A stretch of 42,122 nt of DNA from Hyphomicrobiaceae bacterium (GTDB lineage Bacteria; Pseudomonadota; Alphaproteobacteria; Rhizobiales; Hyphomicrobiaceae): the NCBI GenBank assembly GCA_008933705.1, contig WBUN01000043.1, forward strand, positions 1 to 42,122, read 5' to 3'. The position numbers and the translations under genes are program-made. Numbering within the stretch: the first letter of the stretch is position 1; each line of letters starts with the position of its first letter. This document shows positions 11,480 to 33,339 of the stretch, one piece after another. The notes beneath the pieces were generated by a model, which was not told the DNA's origin, did no database searches, and saw nothing but the letters and a program-made list of their open reading frames with translations.

Positions 11480-12730
11480 TCACGACGAGGTCGGAGCGTC
11501 GGCGCGCATGGCCCGCGTGACATGCCAGGCCAGCGCCACAGCGGCGATGAGCATGGCCGAAGCGAGGAAGAACGGCGCACCCGGCATCTGCCAGCCGGGG
11601 CCCGGCGCGATTGAGCGCGCGAAGGCCAGCGTGAAGAGGCCCGGGCCCAGCAGGCCCGCGAATGCCATGATGCTCGAGTTGGCCCCCTGAAGCTGGCCCT
11701 GCTCGGAGTGGCTGACCAGGCGGCTCATCATGCCCTGCACGGCGGCGCCTCCGAGCCCCCACAGCGCCATCACCGGAATGGCGGTGCAGAACCAGAAGCC
11801 CGTGGCGGCGGCACCGTACATGGCAAAGCCGACGGCGCCGCACAGCATGCCGGCCAGCAGTGTGCGCCGCTCGCCCATCCAGTGCATGGCCGGCCGGATG
11901 AGGCCGCCCTGCACCGTGCCGGACGCGAGGCCGACGGCGGCCATCGTCAGGCCCAGGGTCTGCGTGTCCCAGCCGTAGCGGTAGCTGGTGTAGAGCACCG
12001 CCACCGAGGGCAGCACGTTGTGGGCGAGGTGGTAGAGGAAGGCGACGCCGGCGAGACCCAGGAGCTCGGGACGGCGGCCGAGCAGGCGCAGCGAGCCGAC
12101 CGGATTGGCCCGCTTCCAGCTGAAGGCCATGCGCCGGTCGGGGGCAAGCGACTCCGGCACGAAGAAATAGCCGTAGACGGCGTTGGCCAGCGAGAAGCCG
12201 GCGGCGACCCAGAAGGGCAGGCGCGGGTCGTACACGCCGAGGATGCCGCCGAGGGCGGGGCCGACCACGAAGCCGATGCCGAACGCCGCGCCGACGAGAC
12301 CGAAGGCCTGCGCGCGCTTCTCCGCCTCCGTCACGTCGGCGAGATAGGCGAAGGCGGTGGAGAAGCTCGCCGACGTGATGCCGGAGATGACGCGGCCGAT
12401 GAAGAGCCAAAGGAGGTTCGGCGCCAGCGCCATGAGGATGTAGTCGAGCCCATGGCCCGCCATCGAGATCAGCAGCACGGGGCGGCGGCCGTAGCGGTCG
12501 GACAGCGCACCGAGGATCGGCGAGCATCCGAACTGCATCAGCGCCCAGGCCGTGCCGAACAGGCCGTAGATCTCGGCCGCCCGCGGCGTGTCGCCCCCGA
12601 GCATGCTCTCGACCAGCTTGGGCAGCACCGGAATCATGATGCCGAGCGCGATCACGTCGATCAGCACGACGGCGAAGATGAACGGGATGGCCGCTTTGCG
12701 CGCCTCGGTCCTGGGGGCAGCTCTCTGCAT
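11480..12730 (-). CDS. MFS efflux transporter, TCR/Tet-like
   Basis: 416 residues from the ATG at 12730 (MQRAAPRTE). The open frame continues upstream into purQ but only out of phase with it. Twelve hydrophobic segments fit a 12-TM major facilitator. DVIALGIMIPVLPKLVESM in helix 1 and GALSDRYGRRPVLL (motif A, loop 2-3) resemble the tetracycline-type drug:H+ antiporters. Homologues of this kind are common in alphaproteobacterial chromosomes and are usually not proven resistance genes, so the substrate is unknown. It lies 77 bases after purQ on the same strand and may be cotranscribed with the pur genes. Confidence 0.88.
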   Translation of the reverse strand: MQRAAPRTEARKAAIPFIFAVVLIDVIALGIMIPVLPKLVESMLGGDTPRAAEIYGLFGTAWALMQFGCSPILGALSDRYGRRPVLLISMAGHGLDYILMALAPNLLWLFIGRVISGITSASFSTAFAYLADVTEAEKRAQAFGLVGAAFGIGFVVGPALGGILGVYDPRLPFWVAAGFSLANAVYGYFFVPESLAPDRRMAFSWKRANPVGSLRLLGRRPELLGLAGVAFLYHLAHNVLPSVAVLYTSYRYGWDTQTLGLTMAAVGLASGTVQGGLIRPAMHWMGERRTLLAGMLCGAVGFAMYGAAATGFWFCTAIPVMALWGLGGAAVQGMMSRLVSHSEQGQLQGANSSIMAFAGLLGPGLFTLAFARSIAPGPGWQMPGAPFFLASAMLIAAVALAWHVTRAMRADAPTSS

Positions 12731-12807
12731 GGCACCTGAGTTGGGCGGCGACAGCGGCGCCAATAGGGCAGCACGCGATGCGGCACGAGGCGCGCCGCTT
12801 GGGCGGC

Positions 12808-13500
12808 CTAAGCTGCGAGGCGTTCCACCAGGCTCTCGAACAGCCGGCGCCCGTCGACGCCGCCCAGCATGGGCTCGAACAGGCGCTCGGGATGCGGCAT
12901 CATGCCGAGCACGCGGCGGCGCTCGTCGCAGATGCCGGCGATGTTGCGCTGGGCGCCGTTGGGGTTGGCCTCGGGCGTGGCGTTGCCGGCCTCGTCGACG
13001 TAGCGGAACACGACCTGCCCGTTGCCCTCGAGACGATCGAGGGCGGCGGCGTCGGCGAAGTAGTTGCCGTCGCCGTGCGCGACCGGGATGCGCACCACCT
13101 CGCCCTTGGCGTAGCAGTGTGTGAAGGGTGTGTCCGTCTGCTCGACCTTGAGATGCACGTCCTTGCACACGAACTTGAGCGAGGCGTTGCGCATCAGCAC
13201 GCCGGGCAGCAGTCCCGCCTCGGTCAGCACCTGGAAGCCGTTGCAGATGCCGAGCACGGGCGTGCCGGCCTTCGCCTTGGCCACCACGTCGCGCATGATC
13301 GGCGAGTGCGCGGCCATGGCGCCGCAGCGCAGGTAGTCGCCGTAGGCGAAGCCGCCGGGGAGCACGATGAGGTCGCAGGCCGGCACGGTCGCATCGCCAT
13401 GCCAGACCATGCGTACGGGCCGACCGGAGACCGCCTCCAGCGCGACCTTGACGTCGCGGTCGCAGTTGGAGCCGGGAAAGACGATGACGCAGGCGTTCAT
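12808..13500 (-). CDS. purQ: Phosphoribosylformylglycinamidine synthase, glutaminase subunit
   Basis: 230 residues. PurQ supplies ammonia from glutamine to PurL, with PurS as the third subunit, in the fourth step of purine synthesis. [17 protein letters not shown] is the typical N-terminus. The class I amidotransferase nucleophile is Cys86 in [14 protein letters not shown], and the His/Glu pair is in MMPHPERLF near residue 200. The start codon overlaps the stop of the upstream unknown gene by four bases (ATGA, 13497-13500), so translation is coupled to it. purL is not in the window. Confidence 0.97.
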
Positions 13501-14162
13501 TGGCTCTTCCCCTCTGGCGAGGTCACCCGGAAGCTCGAGAAGAAGGCACCGACGACATCGGTGCGCTGCTCGAAATCTTCCTTGGGTGCACGTGCAAATA
13601 GCCGGTAGCGCAGGCCGGGCGCAATCACATAGCGCACGCGGGCGCGCCGCTCGCCCACGCCCAGGAACCTGATTTCCGGACAGGCGACAGTGGCGGTGTA
13701 TACGACTCGCGGCCCCTCGAAAACCTGCTCGAGCCTGTCGATCTTGACGCGGGCCGCATCGGCCACGCCGCAGATGGCCTCCGGCAGCTCGCGGCGGAAA
13801 TCGGCTTCGCCATAGCCTTCAGCCAGGGCGGCGGCGGACTTGCCCTCGTCGGCGGCGACGCGCTCCACTGCCGCCTCGAGGACGAGCGCGGAGGTGGCGC
13901 TCGCCTCCGCGCTGCGCCCGGGATCGAGGTCCGTCGCGCAGACGACGTCGATGGTGCCCGGGCCCTCGTCATGGCGGCAGCCGGCGGGCAGGGTGACCGT
14001 GTAGCCGAACTCGGCGCTGGTGAAGGTCTGCGATGCGCCGGGCGACTGGCCGATGGCGGAGGCAGCCGCTGCCGCGGCCAGGATCGCGACGCCGGCAGCG
14101 GCAGACGACCGGCGCGGGAAGAACGCTTGGCCGTATCCGCTGCGCGCGCCGATCCCCATCAA
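13497..14162 (-). CDS. Unknown exported protein inside the pur operon
   Basis: 221 residues. It overlaps purS by four bases at its start (14159-14162) and purQ by four bases at its end, so it is translationally locked into the operon. A hydrophobic Ala-rich stretch (about residues 19-38, ending SAIGQSPGA) suggests a signal peptide or anchor, which is odd for a partner of cytosolic purine enzymes. The mature part starts [11 protein letters not shown] and ends [11 protein letters not shown], a layout seen in small PsbP/DcrB-like alpha-beta proteins, but that is only a shape resemblance. It has four cysteines, at least two of them near acidic loops. No function is assigned. Confidence 0.8.
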
Positions 14163-14401
14163 CGTACCAGCTCGTAGGCGTAGTTCTCGATGACGGTGTT
14201 GGCGAGCAGATCCTTGCAGATGCGCTCCACCTGCTCGCGGGCCCTGCCTTCGTCGACCTCCGCGAGATCGACCTCGATGTATTTGCCCTGGCGGACGTCG
14301 TCGACGCCGGTGAAGCCGAGGCTCGCCAGGGCGTGCTGGATGGCCTTGCCCTGGGGATCGAGAACGCCGTTCTTGAGCGTGATCTTGATGCGCGCTTTCA
14401 T
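14159..14401 (-). CDS. purS: Phosphoribosylformylglycinamidine synthase, PurS subunit
   Basis: 80 residues, the normal PurS length. PurS dimerises and bridges PurQ and PurL in the multi-subunit FGAM synthase. MKARIKITLKNGVLDPQGKA, then HALASLGFTGVDDVRQGKYIEV, is diagnostic of the family. The ATG at 14401 is chosen because it gives the family N-terminus; the frame runs further upstream without homology. It follows purC by about 100 bases on the same strand. Confidence 0.96.
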   Translation of the reverse strand: MKARIKITLKNGVLDPQGKAIQHALASLGFTGVDDVRQGKYIEVDLAEVDEGRAREQVERICKDLLANTVIENYAYELVR

Positions 14402-14503
14402 GTCCTCAACAGCGGGTGGCGAATGCCAGATGGCCAACGGTTGCGCGTGACATGCGAAACCTCTGCCCCGCAATTCGCCGTTCGCTGCTCCCTGTCCGCT
14501 TCG

Positions 14504-15280
14504 TCAATTCGGCTTGGAGCTGACCAGCACCGGGCCGGAGCCCTTCGGGCGCGGGTTCTCGGTGAGCACGCCGAGGCGGCGGGCGACCTCCTGGTAGGCC
14601 TCGAGCACGCCGCCGAGATCGCGACGGAAGCGATCCTTGTCCAGCTTGTCGGAGGTGGCTACATCCCACAGCCGGCAGCAGTCGGGGCTGATCTCGTCGG
14701 CCAGCACGATCCGCACCTGCTCGTTGTCCCACAGCCGTCCGAACTCGACCTTGAAGTCGATGAGGCGGATGCCGATGCCGAGGAACAGTCCGACGAGGAA
14801 ATCGTTGATGCGCAGCGCCAGCGCCATGACCTCGTCGATCTCCTGCGGCGTGGCCCAGCCGAACGCGGTGATGTGCTCCTCGGTGACCATCGGATCGTTG
14901 AGGGCATCGGCCTTGTAGTAGAACTCGATGATGGAGCGCGGCAGGGGCTTGCCTTCCTCGAGTCCAAGGCGGGTCGCCAGCGAGCCGGCGGCGACATTGC
15001 GCACGACCACCTCGAGCGGGATGATCTCGACCTCGCGGATGAGCTGCTCGCGCATATTGATGCGCTTCACGAAATGGGTCGGCACGCCGATCTCGTTGAG
15101 CTTCTGGAAGATGAACTCCGAGATGCGGTTGTTGAGCACGCCCTTGCCCTCGATGAGCGCGTGCTTCTTGTTGTTGAAGGCCGTCGCATCGTCCTTGAAG
15201 TGCTGAATGAGGGTGCCCGGCTCGGGGCCCTCGTAGAGCACCTTGGCCTTGCCCTCGTAGACGCGCCGCCGCCTGTTCAT
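14504..15280 (-). CDS. purC: Phosphoribosylaminoimidazole-succinocarboxamide synthase
   Basis: 258 residues. PurC joins aspartate to CAIR using ATP, giving [28 protein letters not shown] is the family N-terminus with the ATP-binding Gly-Lys region; [17 protein letters not shown] and [34 protein letters not shown] are the SAICAR synthetase signatures. The ATG at 15280 begins directly at the conserved sequence. It is the first gene of the minus-strand operon purC-purS-unknown-purQ-(MFS). Confidence 0.97.
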
Positions 15281-25594: not shown

Positions 25595-26056
25595 ATGACG
25601 CAACTGAGCGAGATCTACAACACTCGTATCCTCGAGCTGTCGGCCAATATCGCCCGTGCCCAGCGGCTGGAGGATGCCGACGGTACGGCAACGGCGCATT
25701 CCAAGCTGTGCGGGTCGACGGTGACGGTGGATCTCAAGCTCGATGGCGATCGGGTGACGGCGTTCGGCCAGACCGTGAAGGCCTGCTTGCTGGGGCAAGC
25801 CGCCGCTTCCGTGATGGGCCGCAATATCGTCGGCAGTTGCGCCCTTGAGCTGCGCGAGATCGGCGGCATCATGCGGCGCATGCTCAAGGAGCATGGGCCC
25901 CCGCCCGCCGGCAGATGGGCGGATCTGGCCGTGCTCGAGCCGGTCAGGGACTACAAGGCGCGGCATGCTTCCACGCTGCTGGTATTCGACGCGGTGGAGG
26001 CGGCGCTCGCCAAGGCCGAAGCCAGGCAGACGGCTTCGCTCGGGGCAGGGGCGTAG
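25595..26056 (+). CDS. NifU/IscU-like Fe-S scaffold homologue
   Basis: 153 residues from the ATG at 25595. MTQLSEIYNTRILELSANI, then HSKLCGSTVTVDLKLDGDRV and KACLLGQAAASVMG, is the IscU/NifU N-terminal fold. Two of the three scaffold cysteines are present, Cys39 and Cys64. At the position of the third the sequence reads KARHASTLLVFDA, Ala/Ser instead of Cys; another Cys sits at 82. The protein may therefore bind metal differently or act as a carrier. It is 11 bases before yidD and probably cotranscribed with it. Confidence 0.85.
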   Translation: MTQLSEIYNTRILELSANIARAQRLEDADGTATAHSKLCGSTVTVDLKLDGDRVTAFGQTVKACLLGQAAASVMGRNIVGSCALELREIGGIMRRMLKEHGPPPAGRWADLAVLEPVRDYKARHASTLLVFDAVEAALAKAEARQTASLGAGA

Positions 26057-26067
26057 CGGGCGCTGCG

Positions 26068-26394
26068 ATGGCGCCTTCGGCCGCCCGCATATTCAAGGAA
26101 ATCGCCAAGGCGCCCGTCCACGCCTATCGCTGGACGCTCAAACCCCTGATCGGCTGGGAATGCCGGCATCTGCCGACCTGCTCGGAATATGCGCTGGAGG
26201 CGATCGAGCGCAACGGGGCGTGGCGCGGGAGCTGGCTGGCGGTGTCGCGCATCAGCCGCTGCCGTCCGTGGGGAACGCACGGGTTCGATCCGGTGCCCGA
26301 CATCAGCCGCGAGCGGCACCCACTGATGCCGTGGCGTTATGGCCGCTGGACAGGGCGCCATCTCGAGGACTGCGCCGGGCCGAAGGGGCGCTGA
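26068..26394 (+). CDS. yidD: Membrane protein insertion efficiency factor YidD
   Basis: 108 residues from the ATG at 26068. The family core is complete: LKPLIGWECRHLPTCSEYAL, then AIERNGAWRGSWLAVSRISR, then CRPWGTHGFDPVP. YidD is a small amphipathic inner-membrane-associated protein that assists YidC in inserting proteins. In many bacteria it sits in the rpmH-rnpA-yidC locus; here it follows the Fe-S scaffold gene, an arrangement I associate with Hyphomicrobiales. It converges on the first Sel1-like gene with a 7-base gap. Confidence 0.95.
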   Translation: MAPSAARIFKEIAKAPVHAYRWTLKPLIGWECRHLPTCSEYALEAIERNGAWRGSWLAVSRISRCRPWGTHGFDPVPDISRERHPLMPWRYGRWTGRHLEDCAGPKGR

Positions 26395-26401
26395 CGGCGG
26401 A

Positions 26402-27289
26402 TCAGCTCCCGCCGAGGCGGGCAAGGCGCTCCTCGGCTTCCGGGGCGCCGAGCTCTCGGGCGCGCTCGTACCATTTGCGGGCCTCGGCGCGGTCAGGCAC
26501 GACGCCCTGCACCTCCAGACGGTCGAGCTCGCCGGGATCGAAGGTCGCGGCCAGCTTGACAGCGCCGGGCGCGTACCCGGCGTCGGCCGCACGCTGGTAG
26601 AATTGACGCGCGATGGCGATGTTGCCCTGGCTCAGGAACCGGTCGCCTTGGCCGACCAGCTTCTCGACCCTGGCCTTCTCGTCGGGCGGCAGCTCTGGGG
26701 CGCGCGGCACCGCGTAGCGCTCCGGTCTTGTTGCGGGCACCGGCTGGGGTGGGGAAGGCACGTTGGCCGACGGCGGCTGCTGCCCCTCTCCCGGCGCCAT
26801 CATCGCGGCCGATCCCACCACCAGCGCCGTCCTCGCCTCGGCCAGGAGCGTGCCGTCGACGGCAACGAGGCTGATGGTCAGCTCGGAGCGTCCCGACACG
26901 CCGGCCGGAATGACGGCTTTCAGGGCCGGCAGGCTGAACAGCGGCACGGCCCAGGAGCCGGGACCGATGGCATAGCCCTCCGTCAGTGACACCGTGCTCG
27001 GCAGGCCGCGCAGGCGCACGAAGCTGTTGTTCGGCAAGGAGCCCGGCGGGCCGATCCGGATCGGCAGGGAGGCTTGTGAGGCGGCATGCGCGAGGATGGT
27101 CGGGGCAACCTCGATGCGCGGCTCGCTGCGCTGGGCGATCCTGATGCCGTTCGCGGATGCATCGCATGCGGCCGCGAGTGTCAGCAGTGCAGCGCCCGCC
27201 GCGGCGGCGATGCCGGACCGGCGCACGACCGCACTTGCGTAGTCGCCCCTGCACCTTCGTAACGTCGGCAGCAACCTCTCGTCCGGCAT
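26402..27289 (-). CDS. Exported protein with conserved N-domain and Sel1-like repeats, copy 1
   Basis: 295 residues from the ATG at 27289 (MPDERLL); the frame continues upstream but would overlap the TAXI gene. A hydrophobic segment (about residues 22-44) exports or anchors it. Residues about 55-145 form a distinctive domain (LPIRIGPPGSLPNNSFVRLR, GYAIGPGSWAVPLFSLPALK, SLVAVDGTLLAEARTALVVG) with no catalytic motif I can see. A Pro-rich linker leads to a C-terminal pair of Sel1-like helical repeats (GNIAIARQFYQRAADAGYAP, then ARKWYERARELGAPEAEERL). It is the second gene of a TAXI cassette, 59 bases behind its partner, and a full-length paralogue lies at 28888-29811. Confidence 0.85.
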   Translation of the reverse strand: MPDERLLPTLRRCRGDYASAVVRRSGIAAAAGAALLTLAAACDASANGIRIAQRSEPRIEVAPTILAHAASQASLPIRIGPPGSLPNNSFVRLRGLPSTVSLTEGYAIGPGSWAVPLFSLPALKAVIPAGVSGRSELTISLVAVDGTLLAEARTALVVGSAAMMAPGEGQQPPSANVPSPPQPVPATRPERYAVPRAPELPPDEKARVEKLVGQGDRFLSQGNIAIARQFYQRAADAGYAPGAVKLAATFDPGELDRLEVQGVVPDRAEARKWYERARELGAPEAEERLARLGGS

Positions 27290-27348
27290 GAATGGCCCCC
27301 ATCGTTCCTTGCCGTCGGCCTCTCCCGCTCGTCCCGCCCGAGCGCCAC

Positions 27349-28527
27349 CTATCGTTTGGATTGCGTCTTGCTCCACTCCAGGAATTTCTGGAACAGGCGT
27401 TCCTGCTCGGCGGTGTCATTGGGAGCCGCACGCGCTGCCTGCTGGCGCGCGAACTGGGGATCGATGCTCGGCGCCGTCGACGGCGCGGTGACCATCTGCT
27501 TCAGCTTCTCCTCCGCGACCCAGTAGCGCGTCCAGCCTGGCACCTTGGCGGCCAGGTTGATGCTCTTCCACTTCGGGTGATACGGCGGCACGTGGAATTT
27601 CTTGAAGCGATCGAAATAGTAATCGATGAAGCGTGATACGCGCCGGAAGCGGTCGCTGTCCTTCGGCCAGTTGTAGACGGCGAGCACGGCCTGGATGCCG
27701 ATCGTCTCCACCTTCTCGCCCGGCTTGACGTAGGCCGGATAGTCCTCGGCCGTGAAGATCGACGGCACGTAGAAGTCCTCGAACTTGTCGTAGGGGATGG
27801 GCAGGAACTTGAAGCCGGTCTCGTTCTTGAATTTCACGAACAGGTCATTGGGCTTGCCGACGGTGTGCACGAGGGCGGCGATCTCGCCTGAGCGCATCTT
27901 CTCGAGTGCAATGGCGTTGTTGACGTAGACCGGCTCCACCTTGATGCCGAGGCGGCCGAACAGGATCGGCGCCGTCACCGAAGGCCCGGCGCCGGGCGTG
28001 TGGAAGCTGACCTTCTTGCCCTCCAGGTCCTTGAAGGAGTTGATCTCCGGCCGCACGAGAACATGCACCTCGGAGATGTACATCTCGGAGATGAAGTTGA
28101 TGCGCCGCTCGATGTTGGGGATCTTCTCGACCGTCCGGAAGTGCTCGAACACGTCGGCGTGGGTGATGCCGATGTCGACGCCCTTGAGATACAGCAGATC
28201 CTTGACGTTCTCGGTGGCGCCAGGGGTCACGATGGCAAGAACGCGCAGATCCTCGCCGTCGTTGAGGTTGCGGGCGATCTCGGCGGCAAAGCGCAGGAAC
28301 GTGCCTTCCGGCAGTCCGCCGGCGAGCCCCACCGTCCAGTTGTTGACCCTGGCGATCGCATTGCCTTCGCCGACAGAGGCGGCCGTCGGAGCGCGCGACT
28401 GGCCTTTGCGCTGCACGTCGGCTTGCGCGATCTGGTCGGGAGGAGAGGCCGTCTGCGCCGCCGCGTGCCCTGCAACGGCAAGCAGCGCCGTTGCCAATGC
28501 CAGTCCCCGTCCGATCCACGCATACAT
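27349..28527 (-). CDS. TAXI family TRAP-type solute-binding protein, copy 1
   Basis: 392 residues. A signal peptide runs to about residue 24 (GHAAA-QT). The body is a two-lobed periplasmic binding protein of the TAXI group (NMT1-like): WTVGLAGGLPEGTFLRFAAE, LLYLKGVDIGITHADVFEHF, DLEGKKVSFHTPGAGPSVTA and VQAVLAVYNWPKDSDRFRR-type segments follow the family order. The last 40 residues are an extra tail (RAAPNDTAEQERLFQKFLEW then SKTQSKR) that recurs in the paralogue. No TRAP permease gene is in the window. The ligand cannot be read from sequence; characterised TAXI proteins bind acidic compounds such as glutamate or alpha-ketoglutarate. Confidence 0.9.
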   Translation of the reverse strand: MYAWIGRGLALATALLAVAGHAAAQTASPPDQIAQADVQRKGQSRAPTAASVGEGNAIARVNNWTVGLAGGLPEGTFLRFAAEIARNLNDGEDLRVLAIVTPGATENVKDLLYLKGVDIGITHADVFEHFRTVEKIPNIERRINFISEMYISEVHVLVRPEINSFKDLEGKKVSFHTPGAGPSVTAPILFGRLGIKVEPVYVNNAIALEKMRSGEIAALVHTVGKPNDLFVKFKNETGFKFLPIPYDKFEDFYVPSIFTAEDYPAYVKPGEKVETIGIQAVLAVYNWPKDSDRFRRVSRFIDYYFDRFKKFHVPPYHPKWKSINLAAKVPGWTRYWVAEEKLKQMVTAPSTAPSIDPQFARQQAARAAPNDTAEQERLFQKFLEWSKTQSKR

Positions 28528-28887
28528 ATGCTCTACCTCCCCTCAACGCAGCAAAACCCATCCCGAGGATGCACGCCTCGAGAATTCAGGGGGAGGCCGC
28601 TCACTCGAGCGGAACATGCAACTCCTCGACCCGGGGCTTGGCTGAATGCTGCCCCGCAAAGCGAAACTCTGCTTCGCCTATGCTTGGTCGACGATCGAGA
28701 TTTGGCCCCCTGGAGAATTCACGCGACGCGCCCGCACACGCCGTTATGTCAGAAGCATCGCGAAATTATGGTGCCTCACTACGCATGCCTTTGGGGCCAC
28801 ATTGAGGAATTTCGCGGGCAAGTTTCAAATTGCGGGCGCGAAACACTGAAGCAGTGTCGTGCCTTCTCTGTCTTTCAGTTGACTTCC
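28528..28887. other. Intergenic gap between the two TAXI/Sel1 cassettes
   Basis: 360 bases with no gene. It should hold the promoter of cassette 1 (minus strand) and the transcript end of cassette 2. A short hairpin ACACTG-AAG-CAGTGT (28843-28857) lies 30 bases past the stop of the second Sel1-like gene and on the minus strand runs into TTTC, a weak terminator candidate. The stretch is less GC-rich than the genes. Confidence 0.45.
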
Positions 28888-29811
28888 TCAATTGGTGCCC
28901 AGGCGCCGCAATCTCTGCTCTGCTTCGCTGGCGCCGAGCTGCCGCGCGCGCTCATACCAGCGTCGCGCCTCCCTCGCGTCGGGCTGAATGCCGCGCACGC
29001 TGGAGCGCGAGATCTCGACTGCATCGAACGTCGCCGCCAGCGCCATGGCCGCCTGCGCAAGACCCGCATCGGCGGCGCGCTCGTAGAACAGGCGGGCAGC
29101 GGCGATGTTGCCGTCGGCGAGCTGATCATCCCCCTTCTTCATGAGCCGCACCGCGCGCTCCCGGTCCTCCGGCGTCATCGGCGACGGTCCCGACGGCGGC
29201 AGCACCCTGGTGCGCTGGGCCTCCTCGGGCGGCGCGGGCAGTGCGGCGCCCGCTCGCAGGATCGAGGCGGTCGCTGGTGGATCGGCGCTGCGCTTGGCCT
29301 GGCCGCTGGCAGGCACCGGTTTCGGGCCCACCACCAGCGTGGACTTGGCCTCGGCCAGCAGGGTGCCGTCGACGCCCACAAGCGTGATCATGATCTCCGT
29401 TCTTCCCGCCACGTCGGGCGGCAGCCTGAGCTTGAGCTTGGGCAGCACCGTGATCGGCACCGCCCACGAGCCTGGCGCGATCGCGTGCCCTTCGGAGAGC
29501 GCTGCCATGGGGGGCAGGCCGCGCACGCGAACGAAACAGTTGGGGGGCACGGCCTCGGGTGGGCCGATGCGAATGGGCAGAAGCGCTTCCGTGGCGGGCT
29601 CGACCGTCAGCGTGGGCGCCACCGTGATGGCAGGGCGCGAGAGCGGCTGGGCGCTAACGGGCGTTGTGGGAGCTGCGATCAGCATCGCGCCGGCAAAGCC
29701 TGCCGCTATCAGCCGCGCGATCGCCGGCGACGGAGAACGCCACCCGATATGCAGGTATGACAACGCTCCCTTCACGGCCCGTCCAACCTCCCCCACCGCT
29801 GCCGCTGTCAC
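28888..29811 (-). CDS. Exported protein with conserved N-domain and Sel1-like repeats, copy 2
   Basis: 307 residues. A long N-terminus leads to a hydrophobic export segment (about residues 30-54, cleavage plausible at SAQ-PL). The conserved domain follows (LPIRIGPPEAVPPNCFVRVR, GHAIAPGSWAVPITVLPKLK, ITLVGVDGTLLAEAKSTLVV), then a Pro-rich linker, then two Sel1-like repeats (NIAAARLFYERAADAGLAQA and ARRWYERARQLGASEAEQRL). It is colinear with copy 1, about 55-60% identical across the N-domain by eye. It begins 45 bases after the second TAXI gene, the same layout as cassette 1. The start could be internal because the first 28 residues are not matched in copy 1. Confidence 0.85.
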   Translation of the reverse strand: MTAAAVGEVGRAVKGALSYLHIGWRSPSPAIARLIAAGFAGAMLIAAPTTPVSAQPLSRPAITVAPTLTVEPATEALLPIRIGPPEAVPPNCFVRVRGLPPMAALSEGHAIAPGSWAVPITVLPKLKLRLPPDVAGRTEIMITLVGVDGTLLAEAKSTLVVGPKPVPASGQAKRSADPPATASILRAGAALPAPPEEAQRTRVLPPSGPSPMTPEDRERAVRLMKKGDDQLADGNIAAARLFYERAADAGLAQAAMALAATFDAVEISRSSVRGIQPDAREARRWYERARQLGASEAEQRLRRLGTN

Positions 29812-29856
29812 GCTGTGGTCTTCTTCTGCGGACCACTCAGTCTAACCGCCCAGTGG

Positions 29857-31035
29857 TTACCGCTTCTGCTGCGACTTGCTCCATTCCATGAATTGCTGGA
29901 ACAACCGTTCCTGTTCGGCCGGATCGTTCGGCGCGGCCTTGGCCGCCTGCGCGCGGACGATGGCGGGGTCGATGGTGAGCGGCGCCGCGGCCTGCCTGTC
30001 GGGATTCTTGGCCAGCCATTCCTCCGCCGCGGGGAAACGCTTCCAGCCACGCAGCGGCGCGGACAGGTTGGCCTCCTTCCACTTGCCGTGCCGGGGCGGC
30101 TTCTGGAACTCCGGGAATTTGGTGAAGAAGGCATCGACGAAGCGCGCGACGCGGCGATAACGATCGGTGTCGCGCGGCCAGTTGTAGACGGCCAGAACCG
30201 AGGGGATCGCGACGGTGTCGATGCTGCTGCCCTTGGGAATGAGGTTCGGGTAGTCCTCGTGCGTCAGCTTGCTCGGCAGGTAGTCCTGCTCCAGCGCTTC
30301 CACATAAGGCACCGGGAGCAGCGTCATGCCGGGCTCGAGCTTGAACTTGCCGAACGAGCCCGTCGGCTTGCCGGCAATCAGCACCGTGGCCGCAATCTGG
30401 CCCGACTTCACCATCTGAAAGCCGTCGGCTTGTCCGACGTTGATCTCCTCCGCCTTGATGCCCAGCAGCTCGAAGATGAGGCGCGTGGAGAACTGCGTGC
30501 CGCTGCCCACGTCGCTGAAGTTGACCTTGCGCCCGCTGAGATCCTTGATGCTCTTGATGCCGGGACCCGCGAGGATATGCATCTCCTCATTGTAGAGCCG
30601 GGTGACGTAGGCCAGGCGGCTGTCGATGTTGGCGCCGAACTCCCCCGTCTTCTTGAGATAGGTCATGATGTTGGCTTGCGTGATGCCGAGGTCGACGCCC
30701 TTCAGGTGCAGCACATCCAGCATGTTCTGGTAGCCGCCCTTGCCGATGACGGGCAGCACGCGCAGGTCGTTGCCGTCATCGAGCACGGCCGACATGTCGT
30801 AAGCCAGATAGAGATAGGTGCCGTTGGGGTTGCCCGACACGACCGTCACCGTGTTCTGGTTGAGAAGCTCGGTCAGCGCGGCATGGCGCGCCGCCGGGTT
30901 GGGCGGCAACGGCGGCAGGGCCTGCTTCTTGGCCTGCGCGATCTGGGGCGCATTCGTCTGCTGCGCAACGCCCGGGAAAGGCAGCAGCAGCATCGCTGCG
31001 ACGGCGGTCGCAGCGAGTCCAGGGGCGAGATTCAC
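29857..31035 (-). CDS. TAXI family TRAP-type solute-binding protein, copy 2
   Basis: 392 residues, the same length as copy 1. A signal peptide ends near residue 24 (PGVA-QQ). TVTVVSGNPNGTYLYLAYDM, VLHLKGVDLGITQANIMTYL, DLSGRKVNFSDVGSGTQFST and IPSVLAVYNWPRDTDRYRRV run colinear with copy 1, as does the unusual tail (KAAPNDPAEQERLFQQFMEW then SKSQQKR). The binding-lobe residues differ in many places, so the two copies may recognise different ligands or partners. It is the first gene of cassette 2 and is transcribed away from thrS. Confidence 0.9.
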   Translation of the reverse strand: MNLAPGLAATAVAAMLLLPFPGVAQQTNAPQIAQAKKQALPPLPPNPAARHAALTELLNQNTVTVVSGNPNGTYLYLAYDMSAVLDDGNDLRVLPVIGKGGYQNMLDVLHLKGVDLGITQANIMTYLKKTGEFGANIDSRLAYVTRLYNEEMHILAGPGIKSIKDLSGRKVNFSDVGSGTQFSTRLIFELLGIKAEEINVGQADGFQMVKSGQIAATVLIAGKPTGSFGKFKLEPGMTLLPVPYVEALEQDYLPSKLTHEDYPNLIPKGSSIDTVAIPSVLAVYNWPRDTDRYRRVARFVDAFFTKFPEFQKPPRHGKWKEANLSAPLRGWKRFPAAEEWLAKNPDRQAAAPLTIDPAIVRAQAAKAAPNDPAEQERLFQQFMEWSKSQQKR

Positions 31036-31350
31036 AATCGTTTCTCCCTCGAAACCGTATTCTGAACTGGTCGGTCATCGCCGGGTGTGCGGCGCCCCCC
31101 CAAGGGCCTCCCCTCTCCTTCCGCACACCAATAAAGCTAGCACAGCGACAGCGCGCTGCAACCTTGGATTTCAGTCGGGGAGGCCGCGGCGGCCCAACCC
31201 CACGGCCCCCGGGGGCCACGGGGGCTTCTTGACACGGCTGTGCCCGAGCGGGCAAAAGCGGGCGCCCTTTGGGGGCTGGAGCCTTAGCCCCCATATCCAC
31301 ATCAAGCCCACCTTACCTGCGTGGTTTGCAGCGAGTGAGAGGAGATGGCC
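31036..31350. other. Divergent region between TAXI copy 2 and thrS
   Basis: 315 bases without a gene. The thrS-proximal part is strongly structured: a 14-base perfect palindrome GGCCCCCGGGGGCC (31204-31217), and a hairpin GGGGGCT (31271-31277) with AGCCCCC (31286-31292) about 60 bases before the thrS start. This could be a 5' leader that controls thrS, or an inserted GC-rich repeat. A TTGACA sequence is present in between (31228-31233) and is a possible -35 element. Confidence 0.45.
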
Positions 31351-33339
31351 ATGAGCGAAATTTCGCTGAGTTTTCCCGACGGCAGCAAGCGATCCTTCAA
31401 GAAGGGCCTGACCGGCCGCGAGCTTGCCGCCAGCATCTCCAAATCGCTCGCAAAGAAGGCCGTGGCGCTGTCGCTCGACGGGCGCCTGGCGGACCTCGCC
31501 GATCCGATCGAGGCCGATGCCAGCGTGAGGATCATCACCCGCACCGACCCCGAGGCGCTCGAGCTCATCCGGCACGACTGCGCCCACGTGATGGCCGAGG
31601 CCGTTCAGGGGTTGTGGCCCGGCACACAGGTGACCATCGGTCCTGTCATCGAGAACGGCTTCTTCTACGACTTCGCCAAGGACGAGCCGTTCCATCCCGA
31701 CGACCTGGCCCGGATCGAGGCCAGGATGCATGAGATCATCAAGCGCGACGCCCCCTTCACCAAGGAGGTGTGGAGCCGCGACGAGGCCAAGTCGTTCTTC
31801 AGGAAGAAGGGGGAGCTGTTCAAGGTCGAGCTGGTGGACGCCATCCCCGAGGGCGAGGACGTCAAGATCTACAAGCAGGGCGAATGGCTCGATCTGTGCC
31901 GTGGCCCGCACATGACCTCGACCGGCCAGATCGGCAGGGCCTTCAAGCTGACCCGCTTCGCCGGCTCCTATTGGCGCGGCGATGCGCAGGGCGCCAGGCT
32001 GCAGCGCATCTACGGCACCGCCTGGGCGAGCGAGGGAGAGCTTGCGACCTACCTCAAGCAGATCGAGGAGGCCGAGAAGCGCGACCACCGCAAGCTCGGG
32101 CGCGAGATGGATCTGTTCCACTTCCAGGAAGAGGGGCCGGGCGTCGTGTTCTGGCACCCCAAGGGATGGGAGCTGTTCCAGAGCCTCATCAACTACATGC
32201 GCAGGCGCCAGAACGCCGTCGGCTATCGCGAGGTGAACGGGCCGCAGATGCTCGACAAGTCGCTGTGGGAGACCTCGGGCCACTGGGAGTGGTTCCGCGA
32301 GAACATGTTCGCGGCGCAGTCGGCCGGCGACGAGGCCGAGGACAAGCGCGTGTTCGCCATCAAGCCGATGAACTGCCCGGGCCACGTGCAGATCTTCAAG
32401 CACGGGCTGCGCTCCTATCGCGAGCTGCCCTACCGCATCGCCGAGTTCGGCGCGGTTCACCGCTACGAGCCCTCCGGCGCTCTGCACGGCCTCATGCGCG
32501 TGCGCGGCTTCACGCAGGACGACGCGCACGTGTTCTGCACCGAGGAGCAGCTCGCGGACGAATGCTTCAAGATGAATGACCTCATCCTGTCGATCTATCA
32601 TGACTTCGGCTTCGACCAGATCGTCGTGAAGCTGTCGACGAGGCCCGACAAGCGCGTCGGCTCGGATGCTGCCTGGGACCGGGCGGAGGAGACCATGTCG
32701 CAGGTGCTGAACCAGATCGCCGAGCGCTCGGGCGGCAAGATCAAGACCGGCATCAATCCGGGCGAAGGCGCCTTCTACGGCCCCAAGTTCGAGTACGTGC
32801 TGCGCGATGCCATCGGCCGCGACTGGCAGTGCGGCACCATCCAGGTCGACTTCAACCTGCCGGAGCGCTTCGGCGCGTTCTACATCGACGCCGACGGCGA
32901 GAAGAAGACGCCGGTGATGATCCACCGTGCCATCTTCGGCTCGATGGAGCGCTTCACCGGCATTCTGCTGGAAAGCACCGCGGGGCATCTGCCGCTGTGG
33001 CTGGCGCCGCAGCAGGTGATGGTGTGCACCATCGTCTCCGACGCCGATGCTTACGCCGACAGCGTGCTGGCGGTCGTGCACAGGGCCGGCCTGCGCGCGA
33101 CGGTCGACCTCCGCAACGAGAAGATCAACTACAAGGTGCGCGAGCACTCGCTCGCCAAGGTGCCGGTGCTGCTCGTGGTCGGCAAGCGCGAGGCCGATGA
33201 GGGAACCGTGTCGGTGCGGCGTCTCGGCAGCCAGCAGCAGCAGGTGATGCCGCTGGCCGAGGCGATTGCCGCGCTCGCACAAGAGGCGGAGCCGCCCGAC
33301 CTCAGGCGCCGGCGCGAGCTTGCCGCCACGGCGGCGTGA
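31351..33339 (+). CDS. thrS: Threonyl-tRNA synthetase
   Basis: 662 residues. The ATG at 31351 is preferred because AGGAG (31340-31344) lies 6 bases upstream; an ATG at 31345 abuts that site. Domains in order: TGS (residues 1-60), the editing/SAD domain ([14 protein letters not shown], then [19 protein letters not shown]), the class II catalytic core with motif 2 ([20 protein letters not shown], then [10 protein letters not shown]) and the zinc-binding Cys in [13 protein letters not shown], motif 3 ([13 protein letters not shown]), and the anticodon-binding domain from about residue 545. All key residues appear intact. The C-terminal 25 residues are a variable basic tail. Confidence 0.98.

Follow-up and report, generated by a model that had tools for sequence, protein, structure and literature searches.

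Introduction

The TPAT system of Treponema pallidum (TatT/TatPT/TatQM) comprises, according to excerpts of PMC5812351, a DctP-type binding protein, the 13-helix pore protein TatT and a TatQM permease encoded in the operon. TAXI proteins of the TAXI-TRAP type include TT1099 of Thermus thermophilus and VcGluP of Vibrio cholerae; for the latter, the excerpted text of PMC11574862 reports mutation of six pocket residues. The TAXI-GltS pair of Bordetella pertussis (BP0402/BP0403) is described in parts of PMC12344293 as having an adjacent GltS permease and extra domains within the TAXI chain. Hyphomicrobiales also have Sel1 regulators of the ExoR type; ExoR itself binds a kinase, ExoS (PMC7327166, in excerpt). 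Here we analyze contig WBUN01000043.1 of a Hyphomicrobiaceae genome (5.3 Mb, 96.4% complete); the window is this whole contig, designated C94, of 42,122 bases. It carries two copies of a cassette in which a gene for a TAXI protein is followed by a gene for a protein with Sel1-like repeats. We find that this pairing is conserved among relatives and that the cassettes lie apart from any TRAP permease at the loci examined. Our preferred reading, to which we would give about an even chance, is that the Sel1 protein is an envelope scaffold that docks a ligand-binding TAXI as a sensor or scaffold rather than as a transporter.

Results

Conserved pairing of TAXI and Sel1 genes

The cassettes consist of four open reading frames (ORFs) on the minus strand of C94, in the order TAXI-Sel1-TAXI-Sel1.

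29857..31035, minus strand: TAXI copy 1 (P0004), 392 aa, with a signal peptide by eye and the C-terminal motif LFQQFMEW
28888..29811, minus strand: partner copy 1 (P0003), 307 aa, with a signal peptide by eye, an immunoglobulin (Ig)-like domain and a Sel1/TPR domain
27349..28527, minus strand: TAXI copy 2 (P0002), 392 aa, with the C-terminal motif LFQKFLEW
26402..27289, minus strand: partner copy 2 (P0001), with the two domains of copy 1 by alignment

An earlier note, made from the sequence alone, had described this order and a spacing of 45 and 59 bases within the cassettes and 360 bases between them. Both descriptions are accurate, the 59 bases presupposing that P0001 starts at ATG 27289; its ORF spans 26402-27376 from GTG 27376, in a frame that overlaps the P0002 gene, and by eye the ATG is the likelier start. 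The whole-length paralogy that the note had seen was also recovered: the two TAXIs, equal in length, are 44% identical over 386 columns, including the AAPND.AEQERLFQ..EWSK tail, and the partners share 49% identity over 279 columns.

The same genome holds two additional cassettes, TAXI first in both, on C77 (L015:9679-11817) and C58 (L016:8007-10347), where L labels denote fetched stretches. All four full-length partners of the genome stand directly after a TAXI; a fifth partner match, to the C-domain only, lies on C32, a contig with no match to the TAXI family NMT1_3. Two profiles were searched against 60 genomes, the window's own and those of relatives: 36 have a match to the partner (E 1e-5) and 29 to the cassette TAXI (E 1e-20). 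A partner lies within 2.5 kb of 32 of the 34 TAXI matches at E 1e-120, of 45 of 57 at 1e-60 and of 46 of 65 at 1e-20, and every adjacent partner is on the TAXI's own strand. A sample of the class (142 genomes, the window's included; partner at E 1e-8, TAXI at E 1e-40) gave the partner in six genomes and the TAXI in six. Four genomes hold both (G000, G125, G129 and G152), and the two genes are adjacent in all four; TAXI alone occurs in G190 and G169, and a weak partner match alone in G123 and G185. Chance adjacency is ruled out by the pairing counts of these two samples.

Loci from more distant sources give a mixed picture. A first scan of contigs based on P0003 found no relative, and it was the repeat from alignment A3 that gave loci. 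A partner-pattern scan of GTDB genomes returned 42 loci, many of them contigs already in the relatives' set; a cassette-type TAXI is present in 31 and absent from 11. Forty stretches were chosen with a match over the partner's N-domain, which omits C-domain-only matches as well as two stretches whose match did cover the N-domain, G019:C264 and G050:C300. The neighborhood survey of this domain that the earlier note had called for bore out the association in part: among 44 ORFs with an N-domain, each viewed in its fetched stretch, 11 lacked a TAXI. Pooling all stretches puts a Sel1 gene beside 57 of 69 cassette-type TAXIs, a figure that is overstated because L054-L093 and L114-L155 were selected by partner match; the counts from the 60 and the 142 genomes are less biased.

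In Acetobacteraceae, a TAXI stands beside a C-domain protein in five loci (Roseicella, Craurococcus, Belnapia, Paracraurococcus and Roseomonas), and the C-domain protein occurs without a TAXI in a Rhodopila locus (L145) and in another locus of the family (L154). The TAXIs of Craurococcus (L147:7951-10779) and Belnapia (L151:7936-10830) are flanked on both sides by Sel1 C-domain proteins, one of them convergent. Ten plasmid records matched the TAXI, and neighborhoods were examined for six. In three of them (Azospirillum ramasamyi, A. thermophilum and Methylobacterium sp. NMS14P), the gene directly upstream of the TAXI encodes a C-domain protein whose annotation is "hypothetical"; in the other three (Bradyrhizobium barranii, Microvirga ossetica and Paracoccus seriniphilus), no C-domain protein is directly upstream. 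The A. thermophilum pair carries the locus tags DEW08_RS22235 and RS22240. A single-sequence tblastn search of plasmids with P0003 returned nothing at 1e-6, but the profiles do find the C-domain in the three plasmid loci. The P. seriniphilus TAXI follows a 490-aa protein that is coiled-coil by eye and has no Sel1 match (L210:4408-6948), perhaps an alternative tether with an equal role. Among the titles and abstracts listed in literature searches, no TAXI-Sel1 pair is described, most subscription journals being outside the coverage.

Permeases near TAXI genes

The earlier note had stated that no TRAP permease accompanies the cassettes and that TAXI proteins normally have one, and both statements agree with the genome-wide comparison. 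The DctM profile has 17 matches in the genome; none is on C94, C77 or C58, or within the window, L015 or L016, and no cassette TAXI of the genome has a fused DctQM permease gene beside it. DctM does adjoin four canonical TAXIs of the genome, on C140, C1, C127 and C84; an NMT1_3 match on C86 has no DctM within its 18-kb stretch. For a broader comparison we used 102 nonredundant full-length TAXIs, 69 cassette-type and 33 canonical, each assigned by the higher scoring of two profiles that were themselves built from these same sets. DctM lies within 2.5 kb of 1 of the 69 cassette-type TAXIs versus at least 24 of the 33 canonical ones, the latter count being a lower bound because 2.5 kb is available on both sides of only 3 canonical TAXIs (44 of 69 for the cassette type).

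In the lone cassette-type case, L141, a canonical TAXI (11526-12734) directly precedes the permease (12872-14974). L145 has a DctM gene and a C-domain protein without a TAXI, and in L210, from Paracoccus, DctM belongs to an annotated TRAP operon about 4.5 kb from a TAXI to which the two profiles give almost equal scores. A pairing with GltS is ruled out, since PF03616 has no match at E 0.001 across the 96.4%-complete genome.

These results bear on an explanation in which the TAXI supplies a shared transporter encoded elsewhere, of the TRAP type or another secondary type, with the Sel1 protein as an accessory. We regard this as unlikely, although the genome does offer 17 DctM matches and, in its excerpted text, PMC12344293 both provides a precedent for a TAXI serving the non-TRAP permease GltS and mentions orphan TRAP binding proteins. 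The DctM genes beside the canonical TAXIs belong to permeases that are already taken, no DctM match adjoins the cassettes on C94, C77 and C58, GltS is missing, and the C-terminal motif of canonical TAXIs, H.GA..[YF][YFL], occurs in none of the 69 cassette-type proteins (26 of 33 canonical).

Domains of the Sel1 partners

Each partner has one match to Pfam Sel1, at 24.9 bits for P0003 and 28.8 bits for P0001, both under the cutoff of 30.7, and the N-domain matches no Pfam or NCBIfam family at E 0.1. The predicted fold of P0003 consists of an Ig-like domain (about residues 58-167), a Pro-rich linker and a three-hairpin Sel1/TPR domain (214-306), in which six helices of Sel1/TPR type are predicted over about 90 residues; a fold search with this domain lists Sel1 and TPR proteins, and absence from that list carries no weight.

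An alternative to signaling is a relay of the TPAT kind, as proposed for TatT and TatP: the helical partner would hand on or shield a ligand in the cleft of the TAXI, and the ligand would then go to another envelope protein. The TPR-like character of the Sel1 domain fits such a relay, as does the precedent of a TRAP binding protein and a TPR protein from one operon in a crystallized complex (PMC5812351, in excerpt). We nevertheless consider it improbable, given that six helices over about 90 residues differ from the 13 helices that surround the pore of TatT as excerpted there, that the N-domain is Ig-like, that no permease gene is present and that a TatT family, which Pfam includes, is absent from the Pfam results at E 0.1.

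Relatives combine the partner's modules in various ways. A 716-aa protein (L077:801-2948, plus strand) combines an N-domain of the partner type with PBP_like_2, which is PstS-like, and with OmpA at its C terminus, and in L137 a Sel1 partner is joined to SH3_3. In L142 (8383-9666, plus strand), a Sel1 partner-type protein continues into the first residues of an NMT1-type binding protein, at which point the contig stops; partner and binding protein may be fused here. The TAXI-adjacent partner at L086:1228-2670 (minus strand) has, by eye, a CxxCH cytochrome-c-like stretch between N-domain and Sel1, with no Pfam match. An 843-aa protein (L173:1182-3710, plus strand) shows three successive N-domain matches that resemble the repeats of large surface proteins. 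In N-domain/Sel1 proteins of L057, L088, L089 and L090, an IKQLLRKLE-like N-terminal motif precedes, by eye, a hydrophobic segment.

A distinct TAXI subfamily

Both window TAXIs exceed the NMT1_3 cutoff of 27 (60.0 bits for P0004, 48.5 for P0002) and fall under the TIGR02122 cutoff of 84.35 (83.8 and 72.2 bits). The two-lobed TAXI fold is predicted: the top Foldseek matches of a model with TAXI and partner fused in one chain are 8u79, 9ibo, 1us4 and 8s4j, at TMt 0.75-0.76, with 0.75 for glutamate-bound 8u79. In addition to lacking the canonical C-terminal motif, cassette-type TAXIs carry PGW.[RK] in 51 of 69 cases versus 0 of 33 canonical ones. An LF..FLEW-like motif occurs in the last 45 residues of 48 of the 69, in none of the 33 and in 45 of 2378 background ORFs. 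By these sequence marks, the cassette TAXIs form a distinct TAXI subfamily, and the C-terminal tail that the earlier note had seen in both window copies is a feature of it. The divergent L091 TAXI, 34% identical to P0004, keeps the LF..FLEW-like tail despite a different preceding linker; such conservation is how a docking helix would be expected to look.

Aligned with VcGluP, P0004 retains Y45, Q93 and E125 as Y74, Q120 and E150 and deviates at S75, Y200 and M201 (Y102, L219 and I220). At the three positions retained by P0004, P0002 has F/P/F, P0006 H/Y/Y and P0008 S/S/G. Pocket residues thus vary among the four paralogues, and each cassette's TAXI probably has a ligand of its own. For P0004, with three of the six compared residues retained, glutamate is the first candidate. 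The same substitutions (3 of the 6 VcGluP positions excerpted from PMC11574862 in P0004; Y45, Q93 and E125 in the other three) could instead point to an envelope complex with a structural or redox role, its ligand binding lost or secondary, as could the relatives with OmpA or SH3_3 domains and the cytochrome-c-like stretch seen by eye in L086. We think such a complex rather doubtful, as the TAXI fold is predicted to be intact (TMt 0.75 to 8u79) and P0004 keeps three of the residues in question.

History of the cassettes and their site

Trees were built from 40 of 42 TAXI-partner pairs (a pair containing X letters and a short fragment were dropped) and are read here by their groupings, no branch support having been examined. 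P0004 and P0003 cluster with L054_6453, L059_6525 and L071_6927, P0002 clusters with L069_1477 and L054_8901, and P0001 with L054_8901. The two cassettes of the window thus belong to different lineages for both genes, which rules out a recent tandem duplication. The earlier note's "tandem duplication" is correct for the layout and not for a recent event; because TAXIs and partners group with counterparts in other genomes and not with each other, the duplication is, as judged from the trees, old. Across the 40 pairs, the TAXI and partner trees correlate at r 0.38, a value reached in 0 of 5000 permutations; we read this as probable co-inheritance, to which shared species history contributes.

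The cassettes sit between two conserved neighbors, and an upstream region precedes the first TAXI.

31036..31344, no strand: region between the thrS start (plus) and the first TAXI (minus), without an Rfam or sigma-70-type promoter match
31345..33339, plus strand: thrS (name by eye), a conserved neighbor that flanks the cassette site
25915..26394, plus strand: yidD (name by eye, start uncertain), conserved neighbor on the opposite side

Past yidD, the genes as named by eye are IscU-like, folE, hisI and patatin-like. The note's placement of the cassettes between thrS and yidD is shared by the window, L054, L071, L133 and L140, with yidD 5.6 kb beyond the cassette in L133, and L054 and L071 also hold two tandem cassettes. 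One or both of these neighbors (names by eye) occur in 18 nonredundant stretches with a cassette or cassette piece, the window included, so that the site, too, is old. No regulatory RNA was matched in Rfam at gathering scores between 26300 and 31500, and the search for sigma-70-type promoters in the upstream region gave no match. Terminator-like sites number 3, versus 2.9 in shuffles.

Discussion

As the earlier note had proposed, we infer a sensor or scaffold role for the cassettes rather than transport. Each cassette would produce a two-part periplasmic complex, in which the TAXI would close around a small molecule, with amino acids and carboxylates as conceivable ligands, and would dock on the partner's Sel1 domain. 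In this lineage, docking would probably involve the amphipathic helix formed by the LF..FLEW motif at the TAXI C terminus. The partner would keep this receptor within the envelope. The window's partners would do so as secreted Ig-Sel1 proteins, and those of relatives by means of a hydrophobic anchor, a stalk of coiled coil or a domain that binds the cell wall; L085 and L091 have partners of the anchored type. The output may be envelope sensing or scaffolding. The proteins of L077, L137 and L142, in which these modules are joined to other binding-protein or wall-binding domains, count in favor of this reading.

Several observations weigh against it. Twelve of the 69 cassette-type TAXIs have no Sel1 gene within 600 bases (4 of the 12 sit less than 1.2 kb from the end of their stretch), and 8 of the 12 still carry the tail. 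The earlier note's "obligate partner" is therefore too strong: these TAXIs and the unpaired N-domain ORFs contradict obligacy, and what stands is a standing companion, as in 45 of 57 matches at E 1e-60 and in all four class-sample genomes with both genes. By the strict pattern, the tail is absent from 17 of the 57 TAXIs that have a C-domain gene beside them. Tailless proteins make up 10 of 14 TAXIs in partner-first order versus 7 of 43 in TAXI-first order, or 10 of 12 and 7 of 45 when the TAXIs of L032 and L033 are moved, these being tandem genes whose own downstream partner is cut off (compare L069 and L071). Since related lineages share both traits, tail and gene order, docking by the tail would be at most the mode of this lineage. 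The TAXI and partner trees are concordant only in part, and in the tandem cassettes of L065 (5270-9620) the TAXIs are far apart and the partners sisters, perhaps through partner gene conversion. Prediction of TAXI and partner as one chain from a 12-row alignment gave a pTM of 0.56, too low for their relative placement to be read, with a pLDDT of about 50 for the tail helix. Lastly, no output gene is prominent among the 25 largest neighbor clusters, in a noisy comparison whose largest clusters resemble out-of-frame ORFs over the cassettes and carry no evidential weight.

A wider proposal, which we offer tentatively and hold to be possible rather than likely, is that of an alphaproteobacterial permease-free receptor system. 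Ig-like/Sel1 adaptors, whether secreted, membrane anchored or wall bound, would capture several families of binding proteins (mostly TAXI; PstS-like and perhaps NMT1-like by fusion) and convert ligand binding into an envelope signal, with paralogous cassettes reading different ligands.

TAXI genes are annotated as transporter parts. For the permease-less cassette subfamily, which has up to several copies per genome, this annotation is probably misleading, because no transporter adjoins at the examined loci and the companion is regular. That companion is a nonmembrane or membrane-anchored protein. If the two proteins do bind, they would join TPAT as a second example of a helical-repeat protein that works together with a TRAP-type binding protein, and would offer a tractable pair for studying the function of orphan binding proteins.

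Comparison with known systems

The cassette TAXIs resemble VcGluP and TT1099 in fold (TMt 0.75-0.76) and differ from TAXI-TRAP systems in having no adjacent fused DctQM, another C-terminal motif and an extra C-terminal tail. With BP0402/BP0403 they share a TAXI that lacks a TRAP permease and has an added helical element, whereas the cassette genome has no GltS and its Sel1 protein is separate. The ExoR-type regulators are likewise periplasmic Sel1-like repeat proteins; no pairing of ExoR with a binding protein is known. The TatT/TatP pair of TPAT is the closest analogue, as in both systems the gene for a TRAP-type binding protein lies beside one for a soluble helical-repeat protein. The cassettes have a TAXI in place of the DctP-type protein, an Ig-like and Sel1 partner, and no TatQM permease. 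Because two defining features of TPAT, the DctP-type protein and the permease in the operon, do not recur here, we consider TPAT the nearest precedent for the cassettes rather than a system to which they belong.

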